From Bdellovibrionales bacterium CG10_big_fil_rev_8_21_14_0_10_45_34 (lineage in GTDB: Bacteria > Bdellovibrionota > Bdellovibrionia > Bdellovibrionales > 1-14-0-10-45-34): a stretch of DNA of 64,000 nucleotides. A model generated the notes under the pieces. That model saw nothing but the letters and a program-made list of their open reading frames with translations. It was not told the origin of the DNA and made no database searches. A program made the translations under genes and the position numbers. The stretch lies in contig PEZS01000001.1 of NCBI GenBank assembly GCA_002778785.1, positions 327,666 to 391,665 of the forward strand, given 5' to 3'. This document shows positions 3,066 to 19,916 of this stretch, in pieces; positions within the stretch are counted from its first letter, which is position 1, and each line of letters begins with the position of its first letter.

Positions 3066-3331
3066 GCGCCGCTGCCAATACGTCCAAGCTACAGCGCGAA
3101 CGCAAAGAAATGAATTTCCGACGGGGTCCCCCCTAGTATTTTGTTTCAGTAAATGAAGTAATTGCTATTCTTCTATATGAGATATCAAACTCAATGTCCT
3201 CTGAGTGCGTCTCTAAAACGATCTGAACGGCACTACCTGCCTATACCGTCTTGCCGAGACTCACTCGGCTTAATCCAATAGACTTGATGGACTCCCCAAC
3301 CTATACTGCATACTCCTGATGCAAGGAGACG

Positions 3332-3772
3332 ATGGGTACCATTTTCAACCATTCCATTTCCCCAAAAAAGAGCGAAGTAGTTTCGCCAAAGCAGTCAATA
3401 CTTGTGATCGATGACAGCTCCGACACCTTAGAGTTGCATCAAATTGTGCTCGGTTCAGCAGGATTCGACGTTATCGCGGCTGACAGCGGTGAGAAAGCAC
3501 TCCAGCTTCTGTTAGAAATCGATGAGCCCAACCTCATCATATTAGATATGCAAATCGGTGATATGAATGGTCTGGAGTTTCTGAATTTGCTGGAAAAGGT
3601 GAATCCTGAGATTGTTCAACATGTACCCGTAGTTTTTTTGACAGGTATGAGCGAGGTACCTAAAAGTAAGGCAATCGGATTTATCCGAAAACCTGCCGAC
3701 AACGACGGGTTTCTTAAAGCTGTAAATCACTTTATCGAGATTGGACAGCACGCGCCTTACAAACGAAAGTGA
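3332..3772 (+). CDS. single-domain response regulator
   Basis: A stand-alone receiver domain of 146 residues. Visible parts are the acidic pair in VIDDSS (about 27-28), the phospho-acceptor Asp in ILDMQIGD (about 72), the switch Thr in FLTG and the conserved Lys in IRKPAD. No output domain is present, so it should act by protein contact, as CheY-like or phosphorelay proteins do. AAGGAGACG sits directly before the ATG. The gene lies 63 bases upstream of a CheB-CheR-histidine kinase hybrid in the same direction, which suggests it is a partner or phosphate sink for that kinase. The partner assignment is inference. Confidence 0.9.
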   Translation: MGTIFNHSISPKKSEVVSPKQSILVIDDSSDTLELHQIVLGSAGFDVIAADSGEKALQLLLEIDEPNLIILDMQIGDMNGLEFLNLLEKVNPEIVQHVPVVFLTGMSEVPKSKAIGFIRKPADNDGFLKAVNHFIEIGQHAPYKRK

Positions 3773-3835
3773 CAATCAGCTTACCGACTACCGGTTAGAC
3801 TCACCGCCAAGTAATTTGAAGCCCCTTTAGGAGGG

Positions 3836-6800: not shown

Positions 6801-7735
6801 CAACAGAGTCGGTGAGGCCACTGGCAGAAAAGAAGTCCATTAAAATTAAGTTGGATATTCCAAATTCGGCAGAATTAATTCGTGTGGATCCCACTCGGCT
6901 CCAACAGATTGTTTGGAACCTACTTAACAACGCGATCAAGTTTTCTCCGAACGGCAGTACGATTAGCATTGAGCTCACATATTTAGACGTACACAACGGC
7001 CGAATTGCCAGGCTTCGTATCTCAGATCAAGGTAAAGGTGTTCCTGCGGAGTTTCTTCCGTATATCTTTAAACGTTTTATGCAGGCAGACGGTTCGTCTA
7101 CAAGAGAGCATGGTGGGCTAGGTTTGGGGCTTTCTATTGTGAGCAGCTTGGTGGAAATGCAAAGTGGTACCGTCAAAGCAGAGAATAATCCTGGGGGTAA
7201 GGGAGCAATCTTTACAGTTACCTTTCCAGTGATATCCCATCAAACTGCGATCACAACGAATGATTTAACGAATGATTTAACGAATGGCACACCGGGTAAT
7301 AAAGATAAGTCTATCCGGCAAACTCCGAAGCTAGATGGGCTGCGCATTCTGATAGTGGATGATGATCAGGGGACACGGGAAGCGATTAGTATTTACCTGA
7401 AGTCTTTTGGAGCGGAGGTTACCTCTGTCAGTTCTGCCGCGGAAGCCCTCGACGTCTTTTCAAGTTTTGATCCTAGTATTATACTGAGTGACCTGGCGAT
7501 GCCCGGAGAAGATGGGTACAGCCTAATTCGAAAAATTAGGGCACTTGATGATGGTAAGGGAGGCAAAGTCCCGGCCTTGTCTTTGAGTGCTTACACATCA
7601 GACGCAGATGCCAAGGACGCTTTATTAGCTGGTTTTCAAGCACATGTAACTAAGCCAGTAGAAGCCACAGAACTGGCTCGACTTATCTTAAAGACTGTCG
7701 TCGAGAGGAACCAAGGTCCGCCGCCGGGATTTTAA
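3836..7735 (+). CDS. CheB-CheR-PAS-histidine kinase-receiver hybrid
   Basis: A 1299-residue multidomain signalling protein. Order: CheB methylesterase (catalytic Ser in GIGASAGG about 44, His in VQHLDRTHP about 76, Asp in GTGSDGTSG about 165); CheR methyltransferase (about 265-530, WVPGCSTGEEVYS and SCRNVMIYF); the acidic coiled coil typical of this family (about 690-785, repeated QSTNEEL); PAS; HisKA with SHELRTP (His about 914); HATPase_c (NLLNNAIKF about 1027); and a C-terminal receiver with Asp in SDLAMPG (about 1218). It is probably cytoplasmic because no membrane segment is seen. AGGAGGG abuts the first ATG with almost no spacing, so the TTG at 3845 is an alternative start. It likely couples chemoreceptor-like methylation chemistry to a phosphorelay; targets are unknown. 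Confidence 0.93.
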   Translation: MYSLKSNTLKSKIVLKSKKRIPDQPKQETRRLRDSFPIVGIGASAGGLEAFLQVFSTMPTDTGLGFVLVQHLDRTHPSMSVDIIARSTNLKVEEVKDGTRIEPNHIYVIPPNFNMTINERVLSLSTRDVSPGQNMTINVFLQSLAISEKSRAIGIVLSGTGSDGTSGLMAIKVEGGITYAQDPKTAKYPGMPQSAITAGAVDLILRPESIAAELSRLVAHPYIAAEEFEISNQFDEGEDSNSALSEENSEVAPNDQALEKLFALLRSQKKVDFSGYKKTTIMRRIQRRMVVQKRQDLLEYVKFLETHEEEIQALYDDILINVTDFFRDPESFEALTKEVLPNLLKNKPKGSTIRIWVPGCSTGEEVYSIAIALLEVLETRAQRNAVQIFATDISEYAIQKARTGQYSDSVGGLSQPRLSRFFQKIDGGYQIIKAVRDLCLFSRHDVTSDPPFAKLDLISCRNVMIYFGKDLQKRVIPIFHYALLPSGFLWLGRAESLGDFSQLFSLVDKVHKIYSRSSVPTPMIRFSSKQAQAIPDVSKTLRHATKNDSEFQRDADKILLSKYAPAGVIVNSDLEILQFRGRTVPFLEPATGQPSLNLIKMVRPELLASLRTTIQSVKKANKAMVRSGLHFESDGRHISCDLEIIPIDPKALVKDRRYLVLFKEPKTGEFSSKDDSKRGKKGAKTKARLKEDKRTSELLAELLEIKDFQQALVEQYESTEEELTSANEELQSTNEELQSTNEEIETAQEELQSTNEELITVNEELQMRNADLTTLSSDLNNVLASIEIPVLIVGSDFRVRRFSPRAKSAFNLIFSDVGRPIGDIKPSFDLNLSQVIAEVIESLSPKQLEVQSFKGSWLRLQVRPYKTVDNKIDGAIITLTDIDEIKKREERTMKAYIKADEANLAKDVFLATLSHELRTPLSSILTWAQLIAQGKVNYEQAKRGAAVIEQNAKTQNQLIDDLLDISRIIVGKLAIEIKEVDPGAVIRTATESVRPLAEKKSIKIKLDIPNSAELIRVDPTRLQQIVWNLLNNAIKFSPNGSTISIELTYLDVHNGRIARLRISDQGKGVPAEFLPYIFKRFMQADGSSTREHGGLGLGLSIVSSLVEMQSGTVKAENNPGGKGAIFTVTFPVISHQTAITTNDLTNDLTNGTPGNKDKSIRQTPKLDGLRILIVDDDQGTREAISIYLKSFGAEVTSVSSAAEALDVFSSFDPSIILSDLAMPGEDGYSLIRKIRALDDGKGGKVPALSLSAYTSDADAKDALLAGFQAHVTKPVEATELARLILKTVVERNQGPPPGF

Positions 7736-9059: not shown

Positions 9060-9293
9060 GTGTGTCTAAATCATTTCGAAAAAAGAAGTGGTGCGCAAGT
9101 CGAACAAGTAGACGAACCGCTTGCGACGTTTATATTTGAGATGGAAGCCTATCCCGAAGCTAAGAGCCTCTCGCCCCAGGAACTGAGTGATCTCTATCTG
9201 CGTTTAAAGAACTTTTATACGGTTGCGGACCTCATTGGATCCTCTGAAGTGTTTGCCCGCCAACATTGTTTTAAGCACAGAGATGATGAATAA
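9060..9293 (+). CDS. small hypothetical protein, possible HTH
   Basis: A 77-residue frame with a GTG start. The segment from about 35 (LSPQELSDLYLRLKNFYTVA) into DLIGSSEVFARQH reads like a helix-turn-helix recognition region, but the match is by eye only. Its 3' end overlaps the convergent antitoxin gene by 23 bases. No clear ribosome-binding site precedes the start. It could be a genuine small regulator or a chance frame. Confidence 0.35.
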   Translation: MCLNHFEKRSGAQVEQVDEPLATFIFEMEAYPEAKSLSPQELSDLYLRLKNFYTVADLIGSSEVFARQHCFKHRDDE

Positions 9294-9603
9294 TTTTTCC
9301 AAGATTTTCCAAGGTGGGGTTTCCTTCGGGCGAAAGCATTCTAAATAATGTCCGCCTAGGAATACCTGCTTTCTGCGCAAGCTCGTCTTTATTCGTCACT
9401 TCTAAATGGCTTCGCAAAATTTCCTTAAATGCTTCAATGTCATTTTCAACAAGACATTGCCAAAGGGCTTGCGCTACAACTTCCCGTTTTTGAAGTCGCA
9501 CATCTGGATTAAATCCTATGATGCCTTTGCGATTTTTTAATTTAACCGCCGGTAAATCGTTCAAGGAGAAGCCGCGCTTTTTGGATATCTTTTTTTTGAG
9601 CAT
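9271..9603 (-). CDS. antitoxin, HigA-like (addiction module antidote)
   Basis: A 110-residue protein whose C-terminal half carries an XRE-type helix-turn-helix (LAQKAGIPRRTLFRMLSPEGNPTLENLGKI). This is characteristic of the putative addiction module antidote family that pairs with RelE/ParE-superfamily toxins. GGAGGA lies seven bases before the ATG, which supports this start although it overlaps the upstream toxin gene by 62 bases. Toxin-first order is usual for this family. It presumably binds the toxin and represses the operon through the palindrome at 9847-9870. Confidence 0.85.
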   Translation of the reverse strand: MLKKKISKKRGFSLNDLPAVKLKNRKGIIGFNPDVRLQKREVVAQALWQCLVENDIEAFKEILRSHLEVTNKDELAQKAGIPRRTLFRMLSPEGNPTLENLGKIIHHLCA

Positions 9604-9838
9604 TTTTTAATCCTCCGTTCAAAAGCAAAATTACAACAGGTCCAGTCTTTGAAAAATAAACTCTCCGTCCATTTTTCCATCTTAACTCAGCCAAACCATC
9701 CCCGAGATTTTTGGCGTCACCAAAATGAGCATGATCTCGGATACGTTGAATTCGTGAGTCAATTTGCATCTGATCTTTTAGATTCAGACTCTCAAACCAT
9801 TCCATAAACTCAGATGTTTGCTCTATTTGAAGTTGCAT
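9542..9838 (-). CDS. toxin, RelE/ParE superfamily (addiction module killer protein)
   Basis: A 98-residue protein matching the phage Gp49-like/addiction-module killer family: FMEWFESLNLKDQMQIDSRIQRI, then LAELRW, GRRVYFSK, VVILLLNGG and a Lys-rich C-terminus with QKARLL. Members are usually ribosome-dependent mRNA interferases. It is the first gene of a two-gene operon with the HigA-like antitoxin (62-base overlap). A perfect 24-bp palindrome lies nine bases upstream of its ATG. It sits at the left margin of the accessory region and may stabilise it; whether it belongs to the integrated element is not resolved. Confidence 0.87.
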   Translation of the reverse strand: MQLQIEQTSEFMEWFESLNLKDQMQIDSRIQRIRDHAHFGDAKNLGDGLAELRWKNGRRVYFSKTGPVVILLLNGGLKNAQKKDIQKARLLLERFTGG

Positions 9839-9870: not shown

Positions 9871-10335
9871 AGGTCAATTAAAAAATAGAACTTTTTCTAA
9901 CCGCCGGTTGGCGCGTATCGACCGGCAACTTTTGTATCGTATTGATATTTCTGAGAAAAAACTTGGTGCGCCCTGTTGGACGAGTTTCGAACCGCTGTCC
10001 TCGATTGTGCTTAAAATTGAATTGGCCGTCAATCTACCATTTTTAATAATATAATCTGACGCTTTGTTTTTTAATAACGACATTTAAGCTAGTCAGACAC
10101 ATCTTGCGTCTGTTCCTTAATATTCCTTTTTAATAAAATCCATTCCCAAGCCACCCCTCCGACCAAATGATTACTCGTTTATCAAAAACACCGCCAGCTT
10201 TAGCTGTCACTGGTTATGCCACTCGTAGATTTAAAATTTTCTTTTTCGGCTGGGTTAACTTGGAGTTCTCAACACCATTTGGGTTTCAGAGTTTTACAAA
10301 AACCCCGAAATGGGTTGGAACAAAAGGAGGATTTT
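9871..10335. other. gap with no convincing gene
   Basis: About 465 bases. Open frames here have no ribosome-binding site and no family resemblance. At 9964-10000 a stretch (TGGTGCGCCC ... TTCGAACC) resembles the 3' end of a tRNA gene on the minus strand, but its T-stem does not pair. It could be a decayed tRNA end or attachment site, or chance. Confidence 0.4.
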
Positions 10336-10521
10336 ATGGCAAAAGTAAAACAAGAAAGACAAGAGGAACAATTCAAACGAGGCCTAGCATTCGTACCGTT
10401 TCACAAAGTGAGAAAAACTAAAAATGGCTCACAGATTTTAATATACCTTAATTCAGGTTCGGCCATTTCTGTTTCTATTAAGTACCTACTAAAAGTGCTT
10501 GAAGGTCAGGGCGAGGGTTAA
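10336..10521 (+). CDS. small basic protein of unknown function
   Basis: A 61-residue protein starting MAKVKQERQEEQFKRG. AAAGGAGG lies five bases before the ATG, an excellent ribosome-binding site, and a strong intrinsic terminator follows the stop. It is therefore probably a real single-gene transcript. Longer overlapping frames that begin upstream lack such a site. A charged N-terminus is followed by a beta-like segment (SQILIYLNSGSAISVSIKYLLKVLEG). I do not recognise the family. It lies at the left part of the mobile element, convergent with the methyltransferase gene. Confidence 0.65.
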   Translation: MAKVKQERQEEQFKRGLAFVPFHKVRKTKNGSQILIYLNSGSAISVSIKYLLKVLEGQGEG

Positions 10522-10535
10522 ACCTCGCCTTTTTT
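10510..10535 (+). terminator. intrinsic terminator
   Basis: Stem GGCGAGG / CCTCGCC with a six-base loop followed by six T residues. It overlaps the stop codon of the 61-residue gene and serves plus-strand transcription. Confidence 0.9.
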
Positions 10536-12429
10536 ATAAAGATAATTCCGATACCGAACCAGCCGTTAAGTGCCTCATAAATTCGAGTTCCGTCATACGG
10601 TTTTGGTAAAACTCCATTCGACTTTTTAAAAAAGCTTTAATAGTTGAGTCTTTAAGCTCCAGCATTGGAATATCAACAAGATTGAGATCTGTCTTTTTCA
10701 CTCGTTGGCGACTTGAGGATGTCCCTCTACCAAGAGCAACAACCTGACTTCTTACAGCTTGTTGTTGAATTAAAAGAAATAATTTCGCTGCATTTAACTG
10801 TCCTTTTTCCTTCGGCTTTAAAACGGCGAACTCTGGGCTACAAGTCCAAGTAGTATTCTCGATTGATGGAATAAAGGTAGCTCTCCAAATATTCGGATTT
10901 AAACATGAAACGAGTATATCACCAGCCTCACAAACTAGAGGCTGCGTAACTGGTGCTTGCGCTAAACACGAGCGAACATCAATCAATCCCGTCTCATCAA
11001 TATCAAGAATAGAAATATGGAGGTGTTTCGAGTTAGCTTTCCGCTCAATTTTTCCAAAATCTCTTCGATGCGTAACTAGACTCTCTAAGGACTTGATAGC
11101 CATAGAAGCATTATCGCTCTTCCTTGACTGGTATTGAATTAAATCAGGAGACAATCGGTCGAAGGACTTCCAGCTTTCCGACCAAGTTAGTATGTCAGTA
11201 TTTTTTTGTTTCACAAAACTACTTGCGATTTTTTCGAGTTGATTTCCATGATTAGACTCGACTCGTTTATTTCCGCTTTTATCAAACCCAATATGTTCGA
11301 TAGTTGCTGTTCCTAACTTTTTAAAGTCAGTATTTTTTCCAATCAGAACAACAGTCGTCTTTGCAACTGTTCCACCGAGAGCAAATGTCACTGTTGGAAG
11401 CGCGAACACTCCGCCAACGGTAAGCTCAACATTATTAATGCGTTCGTAACTAAAAAGTAAGCGAACAAAGTCTTCGGAGTGCGCTATACCATTAGGCAAA
11501 ACTATCCCAAGCACGCCACCACTAGCCAACAAATCCAAGTTTTTCACAATAAACAACCAAGCTGGGTCTATTGTTGCGCCACTATTACTAAAGTTTAAAA
11601 ACTTTAATAATTCAGTGTGGATATGGGACCTAATATTTTCCGTGTATGTGTACTTATTCACTCCAAATGGTGGATTTGTTAGTAAAAGAGCAAACTTTCC
11701 TCTCAGTTTGTCGAGCGAGTCACTTGTCAGTGAGTCTGGAACACAAAAACATTTTGGCTTATTCTCACTTTCCAATAAAAAATTAATCTCGCAAAACTCT
11801 GTATGGATTTTGGACTGGTCAAATAAATAGATTTTTTTGTTAAATGTGTTTTTTTCCGCTTTGTTCTCTAGGGATTTGGCTAGATGGAACATAAATCGTC
11901 CAGTTCCACCAGTGATGTCGCCAGCTACGAAATCACTCTTTTCACTTAACAGTCCGTCCAATACGTTTTTATTCATAATCGCTAATGCCATCTGGACGGT
12001 TGGGGTAACGACTTCTTCTGGGGTGAGGTGAGTACCAAGTCCTTCTCCCGCCTCAAACTTACCCCGTAATAGAGAATTAAAAGCTAGACCTAAAACATCA
12101 AAGTCAGCCGATAAATTATGAATTTTAACTAGAAATCCCAAGACATTTTCTAGTTGAGGCTCAATGTCGCCAAGGACTTGCGAGAGATCATAATCGTCGG
12201 AGCTAAGGTCAAACTTTTTTCGGACGAGATTATACTCATCAACGAATTGGGTGATTGTTGGCGAACCTTTTTTTTCTATAATCGCGTTAAGTTTTCTAGA
12301 GTGCTTTAATACTAACAAAAGACGAGAGACAAAAAATAATGTCTTAGACATAGGCTTTAAGGCCGTATGTGCGTAAATGTAGTCCGCAAAATCTAAAAGA
12401 TGCTGTTCCAAGTTGTTTACTTTACTCAT
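10534..12429 (-). CDS. N6-adenine DNA methyltransferase with fused specificity domain
   Basis: A 631-residue protein. After a helical N-terminus comes THLTPEEVV (motif X-like, as in HsdM), the SAM motif GDITGGTGRF (about 170) and the catalytic NPPFG (about 255), the gamma-class order of HsdM and Type IIG enzymes. The last 200 residues resemble an HsdS target-recognition half (DILVSCLNPNIWRA, TCSPEFAVLKP, SQVVALGRGTSSSRQRV, LVDIPML). The enzyme is therefore a methyltransferase-specificity fusion. AGGGG precedes the ATG. It is divergent from a MamI-like nuclease gene, and together they read as a restriction-modification system. No nuclease motif was seen in this protein itself. Confidence 0.88.
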   Translation of the reverse strand: MSKVNNLEQHLLDFADYIYAHTALKPMSKTLFFVSRLLLVLKHSRKLNAIIEKKGSPTITQFVDEYNLVRKKFDLSSDDYDLSQVLGDIEPQLENVLGFLVKIHNLSADFDVLGLAFNSLLRGKFEAGEGLGTHLTPEEVVTPTVQMALAIMNKNVLDGLLSEKSDFVAGDITGGTGRFMFHLAKSLENKAEKNTFNKKIYLFDQSKIHTEFCEINFLLESENKPKCFCVPDSLTSDSLDKLRGKFALLLTNPPFGVNKYTYTENIRSHIHTELLKFLNFSNSGATIDPAWLFIVKNLDLLASGGVLGIVLPNGIAHSEDFVRLLFSYERINNVELTVGGVFALPTVTFALGGTVAKTTVVLIGKNTDFKKLGTATIEHIGFDKSGNKRVESNHGNQLEKIASSFVKQKNTDILTWSESWKSFDRLSPDLIQYQSRKSDNASMAIKSLESLVTHRRDFGKIERKANSKHLHISILDIDETGLIDVRSCLAQAPVTQPLVCEAGDILVSCLNPNIWRATFIPSIENTTWTCSPEFAVLKPKEKGQLNAAKLFLLIQQQAVRSQVVALGRGTSSSRQRVKKTDLNLVDIPMLELKDSTIKAFLKSRMEFYQNRMTELEFMRHLTAGSVSELSL

Positions 12430-12558
12430 TTTTTCCCCTTAACTTTTCAAAATGTTAGACTAAAATCCAGGCTCTGCAAAGGATTATGATCCGCATCCGA
12501 AATTATCGCATTGCTTCAGGCCTCAAGAAATCACTAGTAATTTCCGAATAGTGGGTCG

Positions 12559-13245
12559 ATGAACGGAAAAAAAACTTATCCACAAAACATCATTGATGCT
12601 CTTCAACTCTTAGACGCACACTGCAAGGCATTCTACGATATTCACCCCATTGCTCATAAGTATAGCCACCCAATTCCAAACGATACTCGTGCTTGGTCGC
12701 AAATCCTCGCATCCGTGTTATCAGGTATCAAAGGTCTCGCTCAAAAAAAAGGAGCAGACCTAAGCGATGGCTCCGACGTAAAAGGTGCAAACTGTTGGGA
12801 GGCTATTGATACTCCAAGATTTAACGGGGTTCTGCCATCAGGCCGGAAATCGGAAACCTCAAAAAAAGAATTAAATGTAACAGCATTGGACGATATTCCC
12901 CGCATCTACTTTGTTCTCTGGGACGACGAGCCAGTAACAAATAATAAGAGATGTAGAGTATGGTGTGTCCGTACAGCAAAGGATAAAGTTTTCCGTTCTG
13001 TAAGTGCCAAATGGTATGAACTAAGAGTGTCTGGTGAAATTAAGAGTGATAACTTTCAACTCCACCCACCTCGCCATCAAAATTCCAATGTCATTCGAAA
13101 CACTTGTGGAAATATAGAAATGCCACTTTTGTTTTCAGCCACGAAAAAAAATAGCCATTTTTCTTGTGACCATTATAATCCCGACGTCATTGAAAATGGG
13201 CTATGCCAACTGGTACAAGCAGAAAATAAGAGACCGAAAAAATAG
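12559..13245 (+). CDS. probable Type II restriction endonuclease, MamI-like
   Basis: A 228-residue protein. Its middle part (SQILASVLSGIKGL, DLSDGSDVKGANCW, IDTPRFNG) and later LYFVLWDDEP-like and FQLHPPR segments resemble, from memory, the MamI family of restriction enzymes. The acidic and Lys residues of DGSDVKGA could belong to a D...(E/D)xK nuclease core. It is divergent from the fused methyltransferase across about 130 bases, so the promoter region is shared. MamI cuts within a split palindrome, which would fit a methyltransferase with an HsdS-like recognition domain. The assignment rests on recalled family features and has not been searched. Confidence 0.6.
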   Translation: MNGKKTYPQNIIDALQLLDAHCKAFYDIHPIAHKYSHPIPNDTRAWSQILASVLSGIKGLAQKKGADLSDGSDVKGANCWEAIDTPRFNGVLPSGRKSETSKKELNVTALDDIPRIYFVLWDDEPVTNNKRCRVWCVRTAKDKVFRSVSAKWYELRVSGEIKSDNFQLHPPRHQNSNVIRNTCGNIEMPLLFSATKKNSHFSCDHYNPDVIENGLCQLVQAENKRPKK

Positions 13246-13330
13246 ATCTTAATCTCTATTCAATCATCAAAATAAAAAACACCCATTTTGGGGTGTTCAT
13301 TAAGTTTAAAGCTACTATGAAATGTCTATC

Positions 13331-13597
13331 CTAATTTAAGTCGCTTTTTGCGATTTCATCAAAGTCAACCCTATACAGCGAACCAATATCCAAAAATACA
13401 TCTAAAAGTTCATTGCTTGGATTTGTTTTTAGCTCTTGCTCCATTTCGTAGATTAGGTCTCTCAATTTATCGCTGTAATCTTGCCAGCTTTTAGAGGACT
13501 TTTTCAGTACCTCCTTTAAATCATAAAAATCGTTATCCAATCGTAATGAGCAAGCCCAAGTCTCACGATTTACCCAGCCATTGTATTTTGTATCCAT
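13331..13597 (-). CDS. small protein with NGWxNRETW motif
   Basis: An 88-residue protein. The start YNGWVNRETWACSLRLDND matches a widespread family of small phage and plasmid proteins with the pattern NGW-NxETW-xxLWLxND, of unknown function. GGGAG lies five bases before the ATG at 13597; a GTG two codons earlier would overlap that site. The rest is acidic and helical. It is the last gene of the minus-strand element operon, but a 120-base gap and its own upstream TTAAATGGA motif suggest separate expression. Confidence 0.65.
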   Translation of the reverse strand: MDTKYNGWVNRETWACSLRLDNDFYDLKEVLKKSSKSWQDYSDKLRDLIYEMEQELKTNPSNELLDVFLDIGSLYRVDFDEIAKSDLN

Positions 13598-13718
13598 ATT
13601 CACTCCCTGTCTTTCGGCGTTGATTTCGGGTTCTCACTTGCGGAAACCCTTAACTGTTAAATGGAGTTTTTTAGGATAGACTGAGATTTTCTGGGCGACT
13701 TTTTAAATTATTTTCTAT

Positions 13719-13919
13719 TCAACTTATATGGAGCTGATTTATCGAATTAAAAATGGCGACATTGTCACGAATAGTAATTAATTCGGCCTCAATTTGCTCT
13801 TGGCTTATCCTTGGATATTTAATTACTAAATCCTGAATGGGCATTTTTAATAAATCTCTCTCATAATCGCTCAAAAAATAATCCCAAGGCAGAAGTTTAA
13901 ACTTTTCTTCGTGAAACAT
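13719..13919 (-). CDS. small acidic hypothetical protein
   Basis: A 66-residue protein starting MFHEEKFKLLPWDYF. GGAGG six bases before the ATG at 13919 decides this start over an ATG five codons upstream. The first 23 bases overlap the end of the papain-like gene, so translation is probably coupled. The segment QDLVIKYPRISQEQIEAEL looks like a small helical bundle. Family not recognised. Confidence 0.55.
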   Translation of the reverse strand: MFHEEKFKLLPWDYFLSDYERDLLKMPIQDLVIKYPRISQEQIEAELITIRDNVAIFNSINQLHIS

Positions 13920-14493
13920 TGTCTTCCTCCACATTTAATCCGAAAAAAATAAGTGTCGTTGGTCGGGAAAAATAAAAGGCACTGAGAAGGAAATCCAGAT
14001 TAGAGCGAAGTCCATCGAAATAAACCTCGCCCTTCTCGCTATGAATAAATGAGACGTGATTAAGAACGTCCTTTGCTTTGTCTCCTGGCTTCGCTGGCAC
14101 CTCCATTAGACTTAAGGCGATACTACCTTGCGAGAGGCGATTTAAAAATATACGCAAAAAAACTTCTTCATTCATTCCGTTGGGATTTATCACGAGCATT
14201 CGGCAAGAGTTGAATGTTGGGTGTTTGTCAATAATGCCCAGTAGCGTTTCAGGTTGAACACTGTTATTTTTTTCATTTGTTAACTCTTGAATGAGTTTCA
14301 TTTCCTCAAAGGGCGATACATTGTCGCTAATTTTAAGACGTTTCTTTAAAGTCAAAATCGCATTAAGTAGTGCGATAGTGGAACAACCACAAGCCCTTGG
14401 GTCTTCAGTCCCCGATTTATCTGGGTCAATAATATTGTAATAAGGGGCCTCGCACGCAGGATTTTTTAATTCGTTTACATCAATGATTTTCAT
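13897..14493 (-). CDS. papain-like cysteine peptidase-like protein
   Basis: A 198-residue protein. The segment ACGCSTIALLNAILTL (about 34-49) places a Cys at the start of a hydrophobic helix, as in papain-fold and C39-like peptidases. The later NHVSFIHSEKGEVYFDG (about 146-162) supplies a His followed by an Asp in beta-strand context. This Cys-His-Asp order is what a papain-like enzyme needs, but the family is not recognised and the match is by eye. The ATG overlaps the stop of the upstream coiled-coil gene by four bases (ATGA). It sits in the mobilization operon, where its role could be as an effector, maturation protease or anti-defence factor. Confidence 0.5.
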   Translation of the reverse strand: MKIIDVNELKNPACEAPYYNIIDPDKSGTEDPRACGCSTIALLNAILTLKKRLKISDNVSPFEEMKLIQELTNEKNNSVQPETLLGIIDKHPTFNSCRMLVINPNGMNEEVFLRIFLNRLSQGSIALSLMEVPAKPGDKAKDVLNHVSFIHSEKGEVYFDGLRSNLDFLLSAFYFSRPTTLIFFGLNVEEDNVSRRKV

Positions 14494-14705
14494 ACTTTTG
14501 CCTCCTGTGGCTGATTAGAAAAAAATGAACTAAATTGTCTTCGAAGACCCTCAAGTCGTTCGCCAAAGGCGACTTCCTTAGCTCGTTTGGTGCGTTCGTT
14601 TTCGGCAAACTTTGTTGTCATTCGCTTTAACTCCTGAACCTCATCGCTCTTTGTCTTTTGCCAACTCAAAATCTCCTCAATAATTTCTTTTTGTGTAAAA
14701 CTCAT
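14490..14705 (-). CDS. small coiled-coil protein
   Basis: A 71-residue, highly charged helical protein (MSFTQKEIIEEILSWQKTKS ...). AAAGGAGGATACGTT before the ATG at 14705 selects this start; a longer frame has no such site. It lies 22 bases after the relaxase-like gene and overlaps the papain-like gene by four bases, so all are probably co-translated. ICEBs1 also has small genes following nicK, but no homology is claimed. The motif TTAAATGGA lies between it and the relaxase gene. Confidence 0.6.
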   Translation of the reverse strand: MSFTQKEIIEEILSWQKTKSDEVQELKRMTTKFAENERTKRAKEVAFGERLEGLRRQFSSFFSNQPQEAKV

Positions 14706-14727
14706 AACGTATCCTCCTTTGTTTCTA

Positions 14728-15498
14728 TTAAATGGAACTTTCATTTATTAAATCCGCCAAATCTGAATTGAACTTAATCCGCTTCATTGCTTGTGCGACG
14801 ACGAGTGATTTAAGTTTTACCGGGTCAACTTTTTCGATAATTGCCTCAGTGATTAAGGCACAACTATCTGTGCCTAACGTACGAAGTTCGAGATTTATTA
14901 AATCTTCGGGCAATGTTGAAAGCTCGTAACACGATAAAAATCGTTCAAGATATTCGTTCCCTTTTTCCTTTTTTATTTGGCTCGACTTACCATAAGCCAC
15001 GAGGGCAAAACGTGAGTTATATGCTTTATAATAGATGATTTCTTTACGTTTCTTGAGCGTATATTGGGTGAGATTTTTAAAATCGCATTCGTCAAGAAGC
15101 CCATAGATTTTTTCATTTCTATTAATGAACGAAATATCCAAACGGCTCACTAAAAACTTAATTCTTCGCTCTTTCAGAAAATCAATGACGGCTTGAGTGA
15201 GAGTGAGTGCGTCTGGTCTTAAGAAAAATAACCCCTTAAATTGGAGAGACTTTTGGAACTGGCGGGCGGATAGAAAAATCTCTTTGCTCTCGCTTTTGTA
15301 CAGAACACGACTACCCCAGGTGGAACTTGTCTGGGACATTTTTAGAAGACTGAAAATCTCGTGTGCTAAGGCGTCGTTTACAAAAAGCGATGAGTTGAAT
15401 GTTAAACCATCTTCGTCTTTTTGTGGTACGAGTAACGACGTTTTTATTTCGTCGTAAATCTGTATATCGAGGTAGTCTATTCTGGCATTTTTTTTCAT
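14728..15498 (-). CDS. Rep_trans/MobT-like relaxase or replication initiator
   Basis: A 256-residue protein. The segment FLVSRLDISFINRN (about 135-148) fits the RxDls strand of Rep_trans (PF02486-type) replication initiators and MobT/NicK relaxases. Further on, EIIYYKAYNSRFALVAYGKS resembles their YxGSR..lRvYdK strand pair, with Tyr residues available as nucleophile, and LINLELRTL resembles the following E-containing strand. It is shorter than NicK (about 350). GGAG precedes the ATG at 15498. It lies immediately downstream of the FtsK-like ATPase, the same order as conQ-nicK of ICEBs1 and orf21-orf20 of Tn916. It likely nicks the element at an origin of transfer or replication. Confidence 0.6.
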   Translation of the reverse strand: MKKNARIDYLDIQIYDEIKTSLLVPQKDEDGLTFNSSLFVNDALAHEIFSLLKMSQTSSTWGSRVLYKSESKEIFLSARQFQKSLQFKGLFFLRPDALTLTQAVIDFLKERRIKFLVSRLDISFINRNEKIYGLLDECDFKNLTQYTLKKRKEIIYYKAYNSRFALVAYGKSSQIKKEKGNEYLERFLSCYELSTLPEDLINLELRTLGTDSCALITEAIIEKVDPVKLKSLVVAQAMKRIKFNSDLADLINESSI

Positions 15499-15502
15499 AA
15501 AG

Positions 15503-15525
15503 TCTCCACACAAAATAAATGGAGA
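15503..15525. other. inverted repeat between ATPase and relaxase genes, possible oriT
   Basis: TCTCCA and TGGAGA separated by an AT-rich 11-base spacer in the 30-base gap between the two genes. In ICEBs1 and Tn916 the nic site lies at this same junction. The repeat is short and includes the relaxase gene's ribosome-binding site, so the oriT reading is a guess from position. Confidence 0.3.
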
Positions 15526-15528
15526 TTT

Positions 15529-16785
15529 TTAAATGTCGTCTTTTAGTATGAATGGCACTTGGACTTTAATAACCTCACCATTGCCTGAAAAAATAAATCT
15601 CCCTGCCTTGAGGGTGGTATCGGTCAAAGTTTTTTCGTCACCAACGAGTAATCGGCTCATCTGGGCTGAGTTCCGTCCCAATAAAAAATTGATTATGTTT
15701 GTACGCTGGAGCGTCAGTTCCTCAACCTTGAGAGTCTGGTTACTTAAGATAATGAACACGCCTGATGAGCGGAAAAGTTGGAGGATAGAGTTTAGAAGTG
15801 ACGAGAGTTTCTCTTCAAGTGAATAATGCTCCTTAAGTCTAATAGTTTCATCGTCGCTTTCCTTAGTAATGCGAACACTCGGTCGCGGGGTCATATACTG
15901 CGAGAGTTCGTCCGCAATAATTAAAAATGGTTTCGGAGTTGGCTTTAGGTCAGGATACTTATCTTTAATTTTTAACCAATGAGAAATCGTAATACCGTTA
16001 TCTGCGAGATATTTTCGATACTCATCGATTTCTTTTTTATAGTCCTCAAGTACTGCCACCGCCTCTTTTAGCTCGTCTAAAAAAATGGGATTAAATGATT
16101 TGGCATTATACTTCTTTATGAGCGAGTGAAAATCTGTGCCTTTGGCGTCCAAAATTAAAACTCTGTAATGCTGCTCACCAGTGTTTTTAATCCAAGTATC
16201 AAGAAATGAACTGGCGACCGCCATAATTGAATTACCCTTGCCACCACCAGCCAGGGCAAAAATGCCTAGCGAAAAATCACCTTTGCGCAAATCTAAAATC
16301 AAATCATCGCCAAGAGCGTTTTTGCCAAGCCAGTATTGGCCCACCTCAAGGTTTCTAGGGCAATCAGTCATTGCGAGGGTTTGCTTAAAACTTTCAGTGT
16401 GAAACACGATTTCTCGTTGTCTCCAAGGGAACCGGGGATTTCTTACAGAAATATGCTCAATTTTTTTATCCCAAATGTGTTCGAGGTGTTCCTTTAGACG
16501 TTCAAAATCAAGGACTGCCAATTTGGGATTATATTTAGCGAGTACAATATTATTTTTATCCCGATAAATCTTAATCCGAGAGGCGATAACCTTTTCTCTA
16601 ATGACTTTGGTGCTTGGGTCAATAAACAGTTTTTTCTTTTCGTAATAAAGGCCGAGGGCTTTTAGGTCTTTCATTCGGTAGCGGAAATGATTTTTTATCT
16701 TCTGATAGTAAAATACAAGTAGCCCCACTCCAAAGAGCGAGGCCACAAGTACCGCAACTATTTTCATATTTGCGAGGGAAATCAT
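15529..16785 (-). CDS. FtsK/TcpA-like DNA-pumping ATPase (coupling protein)
   Basis: A 418-residue protein: one N-terminal membrane segment (about 8-27), a basic linker, then an FtsK/HerA-type ATPase. The P-loop region reads ALAGGGKGNS, where FtsK has GTTGSGKS. The invariant Lys position is Asn, with a Lys two residues earlier. Walker B is FLIIADEL. The C-terminal SNQTLKVEELTLQRTNIINF, RLLVGDEKTLTD and GRFIFSGNG segments follow FtsK closely. Length and single-domain layout fit TcpA/ConQ coupling proteins more than FtsK itself. It probably delivers the relaxosome to a conjugation pore at the inner membrane. Its start is three bases after the preceding stop. Confidence 0.72.
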   Translation of the reverse strand: MISLANMKIVAVLVASLFGVGLLVFYYQKIKNHFRYRMKDLKALGLYYEKKKLFIDPSTKVIREKVIASRIKIYRDKNNIVLAKYNPKLAVLDFERLKEHLEHIWDKKIEHISVRNPRFPWRQREIVFHTESFKQTLAMTDCPRNLEVGQYWLGKNALGDDLILDLRKGDFSLGIFALAGGGKGNSIMAVASSFLDTWIKNTGEQHYRVLILDAKGTDFHSLIKKYNAKSFNPIFLDELKEAVAVLEDYKKEIDEYRKYLADNGITISHWLKIKDKYPDLKPTPKPFLIIADELSQYMTPRPSVRITKESDDETIRLKEHYSLEEKLSSLLNSILQLFRSSGVFIILSNQTLKVEELTLQRTNIINFLLGRNSAQMSRLLVGDEKTLTDTTLKAGRFIFSGNGEVIKVQVPFILKDDI

Positions 16786-16787
16786 AT

Positions 16788-17063
16788 TTATTTCGCCTCT
16801 ACTTTTTTAAGAATGCGCGTGTACGACTTTACAGTTCGTCCATCGGCAATATGAAATTGTTCGACCTCCAATAGATGTTCTCCTACCGGAATGTTCTGGA
16901 GCGATTTACAGCGAATGAAATCAGGAGCCGATAAGGTATTTGTGACCTTACGCTCACTCTCTAGTATGACGACCCACTTAAGATTTTTGCTTAAGTCTTT
17001 TTCGTCGGTCGCAGGGACACACTCAACCACTTTTGCTTTTAGATACTGAACTATTTTTGCCAT
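16788..17063 (-). CDS. small beta-rich protein, first gene of mobilization operon
   Basis: A 91-residue protein starting MAKIVQYLKAKVVECV. GGAG eight bases before the ATG at 17063 decides the start; a longer upstream frame would run through the large palindrome. It is predicted by eye to be mostly beta-strand. Its place directly before a ConQ-like ATPase is that of HelP (DUF961), the small OB-fold processivity factor of ICEBs1 and Tn916. Sequence similarity to HelP is not evident, so that role is only a positional guess. Confidence 0.55.
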   Translation of the reverse strand: MAKIVQYLKAKVVECVPATDEKDLSKNLKWVVILESERKVTNTLSAPDFIRCKSLQNIPVGEHLLEVEQFHIADGRTVKSYTRILKKVEAK

Positions 17064-17152
17064 TTTATTTCTCCTTTGTTTTGGTGGCGTAATTGCCAAC
17101 CGAGAAATTAAATGGAAAATCTCAAAAGTAGATTTTTTGTGGGTATATAATG

Positions 17153-17189
17153 CCAGTTTTGGGGGTATTACATATACCCCCAAAACTGG
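17153..17189. promoter_or_regulatory. large perfect inverted repeat between regulator and mobilization operon
   Basis: Arms CCAGTTTTGGGGGTAT and its exact complement, 16 bp each, around the spacer TACAT. It starts directly after the stop of the XRE gene and lies about 90 bases upstream of the small beta-rich gene. In gene direction it is followed by CATTATATACCC, not a U-run, so it is more likely an operator or transcript-stability hairpin than a terminator. Confidence 0.6.
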
Positions 17190-17414
17190 TTAAAGTCGGG
17201 CTAATAGGTTCGCTACCTTAAGATTTAAAGCCTCGGCGATAAAGTAGAGGGTCAAGTATCTGGGGTCTTTCTTGCCATTCTCAATGTCGCTTAAATTACC
17301 TTTGCTAATGCCAGCCTTATTCGCCAGCGCTTCAACGGTCATTAGTCGTCGCTTGCGCCAACTCTGAATGTTAGCGCCCAACTTTAATAGTTTTTTTTCG
17401 TGTGCCTTCACCAC
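17190..17414 (-). CDS. XRE-family transcriptional regulator
   Basis: A 74-residue protein that is almost entirely one Cro/CI-type helix-turn-helix domain (IQSWRKRRLMTVEALANKAGI, then SKGNLSDIENGKKDPRY and LTLYFIAEALNL). GGAGG lies before a GTG start. It heads the minus-strand operon and is divergent from the recombinase operon across 290 bases rich in inverted repeats. This layout suggests it is the repressor or immunity-type switch of the element. Palindromes at 17153-17189, 17431-17446 and 17467-17511 are candidate binding sites. Confidence 0.9.
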   Translation of the reverse strand: MVKAHEKKLLKLGANIQSWRKRRLMTVEALANKAGISKGNLSDIENGKKDPRYLTLYFIAEALNLKVANLLARL

Positions 17415-17430
17415 GCACCTCCTGTTTTAA

Positions 17431-17446
17431 AAATATCTCGATATTT
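17431..17446. promoter_or_regulatory. inverted repeat upstream of XRE gene
   Basis: AAATATC-TC-GATATTT lies 17 bases before the XRE start codon and close to its ribosome-binding site. Position and symmetry suit an autoregulatory operator; this is inferred. Confidence 0.45.
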
Positions 17447-17466
17447 ATGTAATGGCCTATATTCAG

Positions 17467-17511
17467 CTTAGCCGATTTTGTTCGTTATCGCGAACAACGA
17501 GCTAGGCTAAG
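17467..17511. promoter_or_regulatory. nested inverted repeats in divergent control region
   Basis: Outer arms CTTAGCC (17467-17473) and GGCTAAG (17505-17511) enclose inner arms TTGTTCG (17478-17484) and CGAACAA (17491-17497). The region lies between the divergent XRE and recombinase operons. It could be an operator pair, or a relaxase or replication-initiator site. Confidence 0.5.
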
Positions 17512-17576
17512 ATATGACTTCTCTTGAAGAAAAAAATATTTATGAAATGAGATAATCGTGTAAACCATTGAAACCA

Positions 17577-17605
17577 TTGAGAAATATGTAACAACGCGTT
17601 ATACT
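17577..17605 (+). promoter_or_regulatory. sigma-70-type promoter for recombinase operon
   Basis: TTGAGA and TATACT with a 17-base spacer, about 100 bases upstream of the first gene of the recombinase operon. The match to the consensus is good by eye. Confidence 0.6.
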
Positions 17606-17706
17606 GGTTTTGTAGCGATAAAGAACCGAGGGAGTAGGCTCAAGGGGAAATATCGGGACTGGTTCTGGGTAAGCCACTTAAAGAAACCCTGATTAGTGGT
17701 GGTGAT

Positions 17707-17958
17707 ATGAAACCCAATACAACAGGCCGAGCCAAGCCTGACTTAGTCGAAGAGGCTGGCACATTAGCGAAAGAAAAGACCCGAACTTACATAAACCCAG
17801 CTGATGGCACGAAGTTTAAAATTACTGAGGAAGAGTTCGCTCAGGTAGTTAAGATTTTCGAATATCTTCGAAATTCACGAAACGCCCAAGTGGACACTCT
17901 CGAACCAGAAACAGATACGCAAGAAGTATCAAATGATTTAAAAGAAAAGGCAGGATAA
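17707..17958 (+). CDS. small hypothetical protein, recombinase operon
   Basis: An 83-residue acidic protein with the segment TYINPADGTKFKITEEEFAQVVKIFEYLRN in the middle. It has a weak ribosome-binding site (GGTGGTG). It is the first of three closely spaced plus-strand genes ending with the serine recombinase. Family not recognised; position suggests a recombination directionality or accessory factor, which is speculation. Confidence 0.55.
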   Translation: MKPNTTGRAKPDLVEEAGTLAKEKTRTYINPADGTKFKITEEEFAQVVKIFEYLRNSRNAQVDTLEPETDTQEVSNDLKEKAG

Positions 17959-17962
17959 CTTT

Positions 17963-18304
17963 ATGGACGCTTATAGAAATAGAAAAATCAATTTTTCCGA
18001 TGTTGGCTTTAGACTTTGGCATAAACTCCGAAGCACAAAAACAACCCGGAAAGAGCGAGAAGATTTGCGAATGGAACTCCAAAGAATTGGAATGGTAAAT
18101 GGAATTATTTTTAGAATTTTAGTTACCAATCGAGAGGAGTTTCCCTTCGCAAAGGAGTTACAAGAAAGTTTCGTGAGAACCTTTATACCAGAAGAATTAC
18201 TCACGAATTGGAGCGATAAGAAAAAACTTGAAGTGCTGTTAGCAACCATAATGCCTGACCCAAGAAAGTTCGAGTATCTATATGACGATAATATACAAGA
18301 ATAA
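17963..18304 (+). CDS. hypothetical protein preceding recombinase
   Basis: A 113-residue basic, helical protein (MDAYRNRKINFSDVGFRLWH ...). It starts four bases after the previous stop and overlaps the recombinase gene by 23 bases, so the three genes are very likely co-transcribed and translationally coupled. No family is recognised. Its partner-like position next to a serine recombinase suggests a role in integration or excision control, unproven. Confidence 0.6.
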   Translation: MDAYRNRKINFSDVGFRLWHKLRSTKTTRKEREDLRMELQRIGMVNGIIFRILVTNREEFPFAKELQESFVRTFIPEELLTNWSDKKKLEVLLATIMPDPRKFEYLYDDNIQE

Positions 18305-19889
18305 GAAAGCTGTCGCTATTCTTCGAGTGAGTAGCGTCAAGCAAACAGATGGTGGTATCTCTCATCAGGTTCAGGAAGAGAAGTGTCGGGAGTATGCGAA
18401 AGACCTTGGATTAGATTTAGTAAGTGTTTTTACTTTTGCCGAAAGTGCTAAAGACAGTCAGCATCGAAAAAAATATAATGAAGCAATGGCATTTGTACGA
18501 AAGAACAAGATAGGTAATGTCTTATTCTATATGACCGACCGCGAAGCAAGAAATATGACTGATGGGGAGGAGAATGAGCGTCGCGTTTTAAAGGGTGAGT
18601 TCAATATTCATTATGTGAATGAAAGAAAGATACTTCATCAGAATACACCAACTAGTGAACTGTTTGCTCGTGATGTTCAACTCGCTTTGGCGAAAAGCAC
18701 CTCTAAAATAACAAGTGCTAAAGTTATCGATGCGATGGCCTCAAAGGCTGAGACTGGCTGGTACCCCAGCAATAAGCCGCCACTTGGATACACCACAGTT
18801 AAACTCAGAGACGATGAAACTGGACGTCTCAAAAATCGAGGCACAATTATTGGTCTCGACCCTAATGAGAAAAATAGGAAAATCGTTCTTAAAGAGTTCG
18901 AATTACGAGCGAAGGGGTTTACTTACGAGGAGATTAGGAAGCAAGTTTTGTCAGAAGGGCTGATGAAATCAAAAAAAGCCCTGACATACCGAAAAAGCTC
19001 AATTGAACATAGGCTTAAAAACCCCTTCTATCGTGGCGAGTTCGACTGGAAGGGTAAGCGCTACAAAGGCAAGCACGAATTATTTATCCCTAGAGCTTGG
19101 ATTGATAGAGTTGATGAAATGAATGGGCTTCGAGGTAGTTCTAAACGCAATTTTGCTGATGAGCATATGGTGTTGGTTGATGGCTGGTTGAATTGCTCCT
19201 GTGGTTGCCGGATTATTTATGACCCTAAAACGAAAACCATCAAGAGTGATGATGGAAAGACAAAAACATATCACTATTATCATTGTACCAATGGCAAAGG
19301 TGTTCATCAGAAGTTCGAAAATATCAAGGGTGATAAAATCTGGGAACAGTTTGGAAGTCTCATCGAAAAAATCAATATCAGCGATGAGTTTGCTGAAGAT
19401 ATAGCCCAGGCCCTCAATAAGACCGAGAATAAGGCCCATAGAGTTAGTGAACTTCAAATAGCTGAGTTCAAGGATAAGGAAGTTGAACTTCAAAGTCGTG
19501 AAGATAAGTTGTTTAATATGTTTGCCGAAAATCAAATCGACAAAGCTACCTACGAGCGCCAACTAAGACTAGTTCGTGAAAATCGTGAAGACATAACTAA
19601 TCAACTTGAGAAACTTCAAAAGAGTTTAACAAGTGCTGTGATGGAAACAGCTAAAACTGTTCTCGAACTGGCTACATCAGCGAAATCATTATGGAAAAGC
19701 AAGTCACCACAGGAGCGCAGAGAGTTCCTAGATACCATACTCTCGAACCCAATATTAGATGGCTTAACTGTTCGATATCAGTTGAAAAAACCATTCGCTG
19801 TACTTGTCAAAATGAATGAAAATGTTGAATGGTGCCCGGGACTGGACTTGAACCAGCATGCCCTTTCGAGCGCTAGCACCTCAAGCTAG
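18282..19889 (+). CDS. large serine recombinase (integrase)
   Basis: A 535-residue site-specific recombinase. The resolvase catalytic domain begins AVAILRVSSVKQTDGG (nucleophile Ser about 17) and ends with YMTDREARN, matching the DR-xxR helix start. The recombinase domain has PPLGYTTV, and a zinc-ribbon region has CSCGC (about 310) and YYHC. A long coiled-coil follows (about 370-460). The final 20 or so codons lie inside tRNA-Leu read antisense (WCPGLDLNQHAL), so the C-terminus and stop codon are supplied by the attachment site. It should insert the element at this tRNA; C-terminal residues may differ in the excised circle. Confidence 0.93.
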   Translation: MTIIYKNKKAVAILRVSSVKQTDGGISHQVQEEKCREYAKDLGLDLVSVFTFAESAKDSQHRKKYNEAMAFVRKNKIGNVLFYMTDREARNMTDGEENERRVLKGEFNIHYVNERKILHQNTPTSELFARDVQLALAKSTSKITSAKVIDAMASKAETGWYPSNKPPLGYTTVKLRDDETGRLKNRGTIIGLDPNEKNRKIVLKEFELRAKGFTYEEIRKQVLSEGLMKSKKALTYRKSSIEHRLKNPFYRGEFDWKGKRYKGKHELFIPRAWIDRVDEMNGLRGSSKRNFADEHMVLVDGWLNCSCGCRIIYDPKTKTIKSDDGKTKTYHYYHCTNGKGVHQKFENIKGDKIWEQFGSLIEKINISDEFAEDIAQALNKTENKAHRVSELQIAEFKDKEVELQSREDKLFNMFAENQIDKATYERQLRLVRENREDITNQLEKLQKSLTSAVMETAKTVLELATSAKSLWKSKSPQERREFLDTILSNPILDGLTVRYQLKKPFAVLVKMNENVEWCPGLDLNQHALSSASTSS

Positions 19890-19916
19890 TGCGTCTACCA
19901 ATTTCGCCACCCGGGC
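19830..19916 (-). tRNA. tRNA-Leu (GAG), attachment site
   Basis: 87 bases including an encoded CCA. Acceptor strands GCCCGGG and CCCGGGC pair fully. The anticodon stem CTAGC/GCTAG encloses loop TTGAGGT (anticodon GAG), followed by a long variable arm and T-loop GGTTCAAGTCC. The 3' half overlaps the last codons of the serine recombinase gene on the other strand, marking the right attachment site of the element. Confidence 0.95.

Follow-up and report, generated by a model that had tools for sequence, protein, structure and literature searches.

Results

The element and the module that it carries

A compact element of ~9.87 kb in Bdellovibrionales bacterium CG10_big_fil_rev_8_21_14_0_10_45_34 is, judging by its sequence, probably an integrative and mobilizable element (IME) of Bdellovibrionota that would use resident TcpA-type pores in trans. 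It occupies positions 9964 to 19835 of the window, that is, of the whole stretch of 64,000 nucleotides analysed, and is bounded by two copies of a TGGTGC core; the host genome is 3.06 Mb in size, and its relatives bear the names Bdellovibrionaceae or Bdellovibrionales. The element possesses its own integrase (a large serine recombinase), att sites and a relaxase-like gene, while mating-pore genes are absent from within it, which is the gene content by which an IME is recognized. The original prediction had placed a mobilizable element at 13331-19889. The gene order given there, with an XRE regulator, a 91-residue protein, an ATPase, a Rep-like protein and a small gene on the minus strand, divergent from a serine recombinase operon, is present throughout, and the proposed mobilizable character in a non-Firmicute host is supported; the relation to MOBT, however, is one of likeness only, and the element is larger, adding a MamI-type restriction-modification pair and the gene 10336-10521. 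The coordinates of all features are collected in Table 1.

A predicted pT181-type Rep_trans fold for the 256-residue protein

The AlphaFold model of the 256-residue protein (mean predicted local distance difference test, pLDDT, 83; predicted template modelling score, pTM, 0.80) gave as its top six Foldseek matches chains of 4cij, 4cwc and 4cwe, all of them pT181-family Rep_trans initiators (best E 2.9e-8). VIA likewise put the Rep_trans rows first, with Z 12.8, 11.8 and 11.4 (for the best, rmsd 3.8 over 213 aligned residues), the next unrelated row having Z 8.2 over 88 residues; families missing from the VIA list were not counted as negative evidence. Identity to the pT181-family initiators in the aligned structures is ~11-13%, and a profile of the Rep sequences found nothing significant in the PDB, so that the link to Rep_trans runs through structure. 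The model thus agrees with the Rep_trans-like assignment made beforehand, and the outcome that would have told against it, a fold unlike Rep_trans/MobT, did not arise.

Like the MOBT relaxases, the predicted model consists of two five-strand sheet modules, and its sequence contains three putative acidic metal ligands, a catalytic Tyr and a Lys at Tyr+2 (D8, D121, E204, Y169 and K171). These residues are invariant in six aligned Rep homologues, the homologue in the sister element L049 having Asp at the E204 position. The corresponding residues are D9, D116, Y179, Q184 and E196 in RepSTK1 (PMC4797284) and D72, D177, Y252, K254 and E280 in RelSt3 (PMC6499999); Q174, at Tyr+5, stands as does Q184 in RepSTK1.

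A membrane-anchored ATPase of the FtsK/TcpA type

The profile of the ATPase family, when compared with solved structures, gave FtsK as its best match (E 1.2e-7), followed by TcpA of the pCW3 type (6o1w-z, E 2e-4), in line with the FtsK/TcpA-like assignment of the earlier reading. PF01580 is matched by 4 of the 8 family members, and the family profile also finds chromosomal proteins of FtsK length in most genomes of the phylum. As in TcpA, a single FtsK_SpoIIIE motor is combined with an N-terminal membrane anchor, a hydrophobic N-terminal segment being present in 9 of the 10 ATPases, that of the window included. The motifs DAKG/DE are of the FtsK type. Together with the distant L018 and L050, the ATPases form one clade with a support of 100/100.

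The compact layout of an integrase, a rolling-circle replication (RCR) Rep and an FtsK-like ATPase without pore genes, as well as the ranking of FtsK over TcpA, would also fit an arrangement like that of actinomycete integrative and conjugative elements (ICEs), in which the ATPase would, in the manner of TraB, carry double-stranded DNA from cell to cell by itself, the Rep would serve replication, and no type IV secretion system (T4SS) would take part. TraB-type proteins have a C-terminal DNA-recognition domain, whereas the ATPase of the window ends at residue 418, directly behind the motor domain and within ~8 residues of its last conserved position (P411). Moreover, the hosts are diderm, and the same genome encodes T4SS pores with TcpA-like coupling proteins. 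We therefore regard transfer by the ATPase itself as improbable.

Still less credible is the reading as a phage satellite or an element akin to filamentous phages, in which the Rep would be of the G2P type and be accompanied by a single-stranded-DNA-binding protein and a Zot-like ATPase. There is a weak Phage_CRI match (E 0.013), inovirus Reps occur among the viral fold matches, and the 91-residue protein could be a gV-like binder of single-stranded DNA. Yet among the cassette proteins, scans against Pfam and PHROGs recognized neither Zot, the match that would have told against the FtsK/TcpA assignment, nor coat or structural genes; the ATPase has an N-terminal anchor and the FtsK-type motifs, and relatives of it are missing from 50,697 phage records and from IMG/VR. 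The Zot/inovirus reading was rejected on the lack of Zot and coat matches and of relatives in the phage records and IMG/VR.

The 91-residue protein and the hairpin upstream of its gene

The model of the 91-residue protein, which had been described as beta-rich, is a five-stranded all-beta fold of the OB type, like HelP and OrfM. In Foldseek, single-stranded-DNA-binding proteins with SSB-type OB-folds came on top (best E 5.5e-4), and VIA listed SSB, PriB and MCM OB-folds with Z 7-8. The protein has no Pfam match at E<=1, DUF961 included. HelP and OrfL/OrfM of ICEBs1 and ICESt3 are OB-folds in the same gene setting (PMC12614216), and here, too, a small single OB-fold is encoded beside the ATPase and the putative relaxase.

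A perfect hairpin, CCAGTTTTGGGGGTAT-ATGTA-ATACCCCCAAAACTGG, which had escaped the original prediction, begins 126 bases upstream of the OB-fold gene and is a candidate origin of transfer (oriT) or double-strand origin. Its stem has 16 bp, whereas in 300 shuffled versions of the 4.4-kb cassette no perfect stem exceeded 10 bp, and its DNA folding z is -8.2. Between the window, the related cassettes L013 and L014 and the plasmid pBdHAGR3, 16 of the 16 pairs are kept, 8 of them changed on both sides, and none is broken. The tip reads GTAA in the window and the plasmid, CTAA in L013 and L014, and CTAT in L049, L015 and L016; the hairpins of the latter three are of an 8-bp/12-nt form, and that of L017 is weaker. 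In ICEBs1 and ICESt3, nicking takes place at CT'AA, to which the CTAA of L013 and L014 corresponds; the site there is located in a hairpin loop, the hairpin being rich in GC and having, in ICESt3, a 7-bp stem and a 12-nt interval (PMC9371924). In the window, the hairpin is followed by a conserved non-coding block containing CTACTTTTGAGATTTTCCATTTA, and related versions of the block follow the hairpin in all eight origins; the block is a putative bind site.

The possibility that the hairpin is a transcription terminator was rejected, as the terminator scan did not report it and no T-run follows. A search of IMG/VR for the exact pattern of the nic hairpin gave seven matches; their stems extended little further and cassette genes were lacking, so that they were attributed to chance or to other origins.

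Recurrence of the core module with different integrases

The core order of OB-fold protein, ATPase, Rep, small gene and ~190-residue protein was found again in six cassettes on Bdellovibrionota contigs and on one plasmid. Two cassettes lie at tRNA-Asn with a tyrosine-type integrase (L013 and L014), one at tmRNA (L015), one at tRNA-Gln (L016) and one at tRNA-Leu with a serine recombinase (L049), and the core order is also kept in L017. As the same operon is present in all of these, chance does not account for the gene order, and an order that stays constant as integrases and targets vary is to be expected of a transfer or replication module.

The plasmid pBdHAGR3 (AP029179, Bdellovibrio sp. HAGR004) is circular, 15.4 kb long, and carries a tyrosine integrase-Dam fusion (L012 19-1386) and a ParA-like gene; it was the sole plasmid match of the ATPase. 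Its module genes are annotated without function, and MOB-suite types it as non-mobilizable. This typing, together with the occurrence of the same fold in plasmid and inovirus Reps, speaks for an integrating rolling-circle replicon, in which the Rep would only replicate the circle and the ATPase would pump or segregate it within the cell, with no cell-to-cell transfer. MOB-suite typing, however, would overlook a new relaxase, and an anchored FtsK/TcpA-type ATPase together with an OB-fold protein and an origin makes up the transfer module of ICEBs1 and ICESt3. Furthermore, the module occurs in several families of the phylum with its integrases swapped, which also argues against a mere replicon. 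We consider this alternative unlikely, albeit the most plausible of the three.

Beside the cassette L013 in the genome G081 lie a DarT/DarG defence pair (2940-4129) and a second serine recombinase (5951-7579).

Integration at tRNA-Leu(gag) and the attP site inside the recombinase gene

The recombinase gene and the paired att cores point to integration at the 3′ end of the tRNA-Leu(gag) gene. A repeat search revealed no long perfect att repeats, and the att sites emerged only through comparison with the sister element L049, which is 6.97 kb long and sits in a genome of the same phylum outside the host's order (G157). Since the left ends of both elements match and both start with TGGTGC, the complement of the tRNA end, the extent was set at 9964-19835. 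No empty integration site was found, because the left-flank protein has no homologue among 58 relatives. A toxin-antitoxin-like pair (9271-9838) lies outside the element.

The recombinase gene extends 60 bases, that is, its last 19 codons and the stop, into the tRNA-Leu gene, and the recombinase gene of L049 likewise ends 60 bases within a tRNA-Leu(gag). The attP site is thus situated within the 3′ end of the element's own recombinase gene. When the right end was joined to the left by script, the recombinase frame stayed open: the tail reads EWC-PGLDLNQHALSSASTSS in the integrated element and EWC-ALLDEFRTAVLDCA at the computed junction of the circle, and in the joined form of L049 it reads EWC-TLLDEFRTACVGFKLSKAI, LLDEFRTA being kept in both circle-form tails. 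Given the position of attP and the open frame, integration therefore replaces the last ~14-20 residues of the recombinase by a tail that the tRNA region encodes.

Several observations were made around these ends. In L049, the end of the left flank (2900-2945) resembles a recombinase tail (MKGNVRWC), from which it seems that this element was inserted beside the remnant of another copy. At 1707-1735, L070 (G000 C12) contains a second att-like half site, TGGTGCCCAGAACTGGACGACTTTCGAAC. It immediately follows a toxin-antitoxin-like pair, has a Type III restriction system in its vicinity, and may be what is left of the end of a related element. A repeat, GGTGCGC...TCGAACAAGTAGACGAACCGCTTGC, stands beside toxin-antitoxin pairs at two places of the genome (window 9060-9130; L062, about 635-700).

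Candidate helper systems in the host genome

Although no pore is encoded by the element, as had been stated beforehand, this does not extend to the genome, where two VirB-type clusters were found. Of the three VirB4-like loci in the host genome, two (L071 and L072) are clustered with VirB6/8/9/10-like genes and with the gene of a ~485-residue FtsK-type coupling protein. The coupling protein of L072 matched a TcpA structure (E 1.5e-31) better than FtsK (E 2e-16). Such elements have been argued to be limited to TcpA-bearing helpers (PMC5704250), and the TcpA-type systems of the host genome are the type of helper expected from this. A related VirB4 is present in 6 of the 8 carrier genomes.

The L072 cluster shares 91% DNA identity over 4.9 kb with a locus of the genome that bears the sister element (L087, C129 of G157), which suggests, from the sequences and with the caveat of contamination in draft genomes, that the cluster moved recently between distant hosts. 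In L071 and L072, a homologue of the protein encoded beside the coupling protein weakly matches Replic_Relax.

Points against mobilization, and the proposed mechanism

Several results weigh against the view that the element is mobilized by a MOBT-like nickase and a TcpA-type ATPase. PF02486 (Rep_trans) is unmatched by the six Rep homologues in hmmscan at E<=1, and at the locus even at E<=10. The N-terminal helix-turn-helix (HTH) of MOBT is absent, as the model opens with the strand 4-15 bearing D8 and has nothing before it; nor has the family retained the Arg at Tyr-2 that plays an important part in religation by RepD. Because inovirus Reps are among the viral fold matches, and phage and plasmid initiators have the fold in common, the fold alone is no proof of a relaxase, and a purely replicative role is conceivable. 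The clade of the ATPases stands apart from TcpA (represented by the tcp locus of an Enterocloster plasmid), from T4SS coupling proteins and from FtsK, and with FtsK scoring first the family is not closer to TcpA than to FtsK. Walker A is non-canonical, with GKGN for GK[S/T], in the window, L013, L014 and L049, the other six ATPases having the canonical GKS. Finally, the window's own hairpin tip is GTAA rather than CTAA, and a related VirB4 was not seen in the carriers G049 and G012, both of them draft genomes.

As neither a PF02486 match nor the HTH is present, strict membership in MOBT fails; the element is probably MOBT-like in mechanism, as a Gram-negative branch of its own, and lies outside MOBT by definition. 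The MobT strategy proposed earlier thus holds for the fold, the catalytic residues and the gene set, and does not hold for the family profile and the HTH.

In the mechanism that we propose for mobilization, excision would come first, after which the Rep-like protein would nick the hairpin tip via Tyr169 and remain on the 5′ end. The nicked circle could then enter rolling-circle replication, with the OB-fold protein aiding strand separation, and the ATPase would hand the nicked strand over to a type IV secretion pore, which the resident TcpA-type conjugation systems would provide in trans. Re-closure of the strand and integration in the recipient would complete the cycle.

Other genes of the element

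The MamI-type restriction-modification pair is cargo of the element. The 198-residue core protein has no convincing Pfam match and may, as a guess, be a papain-like cysteine enzyme or cysteine-peptidase-like protein.

Table 1. Features of the element and its surroundings in window coordinates, followed by the two candidate helper loci in contig coordinates
Feature	Position	Strand	Remarks
attL, TGGTGC core and element-side half GCCCTGTTGGACGAGTTTCGAAC	9964..9992	+	27/29 bases common with left end of L049 (2943-2971)
61-aa conserved small gene, just inside left end	10336..10521	+	74-83% identical homologues beside cassette in L015, L016, L017
N6-adenine DNA methyltransferase, cargo	10534..12429	-	PF02384 E 6e-16; PADLOC methyltransferase
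MamI-family restriction endonuclease, cargo	12559..13245	+	PF09567 E 1.3e-36
DUF7249 protein, accessory	13331..13603	-	PF23907 E 2.9e-8; 54% identical homologue in L015
71-aa accessory gene	13719..13934	-	Equivalent-position homologues in L013, L014
198-aa core protein	13897..14493	-	Invariant Gly36-Cys37 and His146 in seven homologues
71-aa small core gene	14490..14705	-	Start set from homologues; homologues in L013, L014, L049
256-aa Rep_trans-fold nickase, putative relaxase/initiator	14728..15498	-	D8, D121, Y169, K171, E204
418-aa membrane-anchored FtsK/TcpA-type ATPase, putative coupling protein	15529..16785	-	PHROG FtsK E 1.6e-17
91-aa OB-fold protein, HelP-like position	16788..17063	-	Model pLDDT 81; OB-fold/SSB matches
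Conserved non-coding block with CTACTTTTGAGATTTTCCATTTA, putative bind site	17106..17137	-	Nearly invariant in four relatives; related block in the four other origins
Perfect 16-bp hairpin, loop ATGTA, GTAA at tip	17153..17189	-	Candidate oriT/double-strand origin nic site
XRE-family repressor-like regulator	17190..17414	-	PF01381 E 4.9e-12; 63% identical homologue in L049
83-aa gene, recombinase operon	17707..17958	+	54% identical homologue in L049
113-aa gene preceding recombinase	17963..18304	+	Open reading frame and conserved operon position
Large serine recombinase	18282..19889	+	PF00239 E 5.7e-14, PF07508 E 6.9e-8; 70% identical L049 homologue, same tRNA
Right att core TGGTGC	19830..19835	+	Complement of last six bases of tRNA-Leu gene
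tRNA-Leu (gag), integration target	19830..19916	-	ARAGORN
L071	G000 C1:57000-76999		VirB-type cluster, TcpA/FtsK-type coupling protein instead of VirD4
L072	G000 C11:371500-391000		VirB-type cluster, TcpA/FtsK-type coupling protein instead of VirD4

Discussion

In this work, we describe in a diderm lineage of predatory bacteria the trio of a predicted nickase, an OB-fold protein and an ATPase, accompanied by an origin hairpin and by VirB-type pores with TcpA-like coupling proteins. Such elements are easily overlooked by current tools, as is exemplified by the plasmid relative that mobility typing called non-mobilizable. With a predicted nic site, a predicted nickase residue and candidate helper genes at hand, the claim is directly testable.

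More tentatively, and with somewhat less than even confidence, we suggest that the Bdellovibrionota harbour a Gram-negative branch of the strategy that couples a Rep_trans nickase with a TcpA-type ATPase. The TcpA-like ATPase of the small elements might pair with the VirB-type pores of larger elements, which likewise employ coupling proteins of the TcpA type and not VirD4, and the attP-driven change of the recombinase tail may act as a switch. According to a 2025 review, TcpA is restricted to a subset of Gram-positive systems, all Gram-negative systems using VirD4, and MOBT relaxases occur mainly in Bacillota (PMC12857230). Our literature search found no paper on such elements in Bdellovibrionota.

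Among the known systems, the streptococcal IMEs are likewise compact, with their own RCR-type relaxase, an FtsK-like coupling protein and no pore; they all have tyrosine integrases and Firmicute hosts, whereas here a serine recombinase is found in Bdellovibrionota (PMC5357655). In the TcpA-bearing mobilizable elements of streptococci, the integrase is always a tyrosine integrase when the relaxase is RCR-related (PMC5357655). The initiators of the pT181 family (RepD, RepC, RepSTK1) share with the 256-residue protein the predicted fold, the metal ligands, the catalytic Tyr and a hairpin origin, but here the Rep gene is linked to those of an ATPase, an OB-fold protein and an integrase. The plasmid pBdHAGR3 has the same module with the hairpin and its flanking block, and differs in being a circular plasmid with the integrase-Dam fusion and the ParA-like gene. 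Actinomycete ICEs of the pSAM2 type, which rely on TraB, combine an RCR Rep, an FtsK-like ATPase and tRNA integration without a T4SS. The element has these traits in common with them, but lacks the TraB-type C-terminal domain and resides in a diderm host with a T4SS of its own.

In layout, the element resembles ICEBs1, Tn916 and ICESt3, where HelP/OrfL/OrfM, ConQ/TcpA and the MOBT relaxases NicK/Orf20/RelSt3 make up the same set of OB-fold protein, FtsK/TcpA-type ATPase and Rep_trans-fold nickase in the same order, with the same Asp/Asp/Glu-Tyr-Lys residues and a hairpin origin, the CT'AA type of tip being matched exactly in L013 and L014, with GTAA in the window. In contrast to these elements, the one described here has neither a PF02486 nor a DUF961 match, no HTH at the N-terminus of the Rep and no pore genes; its hairpin lies upstream of the OB-fold gene, its integrase is a serine recombinase, its core includes an additional Cys/His protein, and its host is a Gram-negative member of the Bdellovibrionota.

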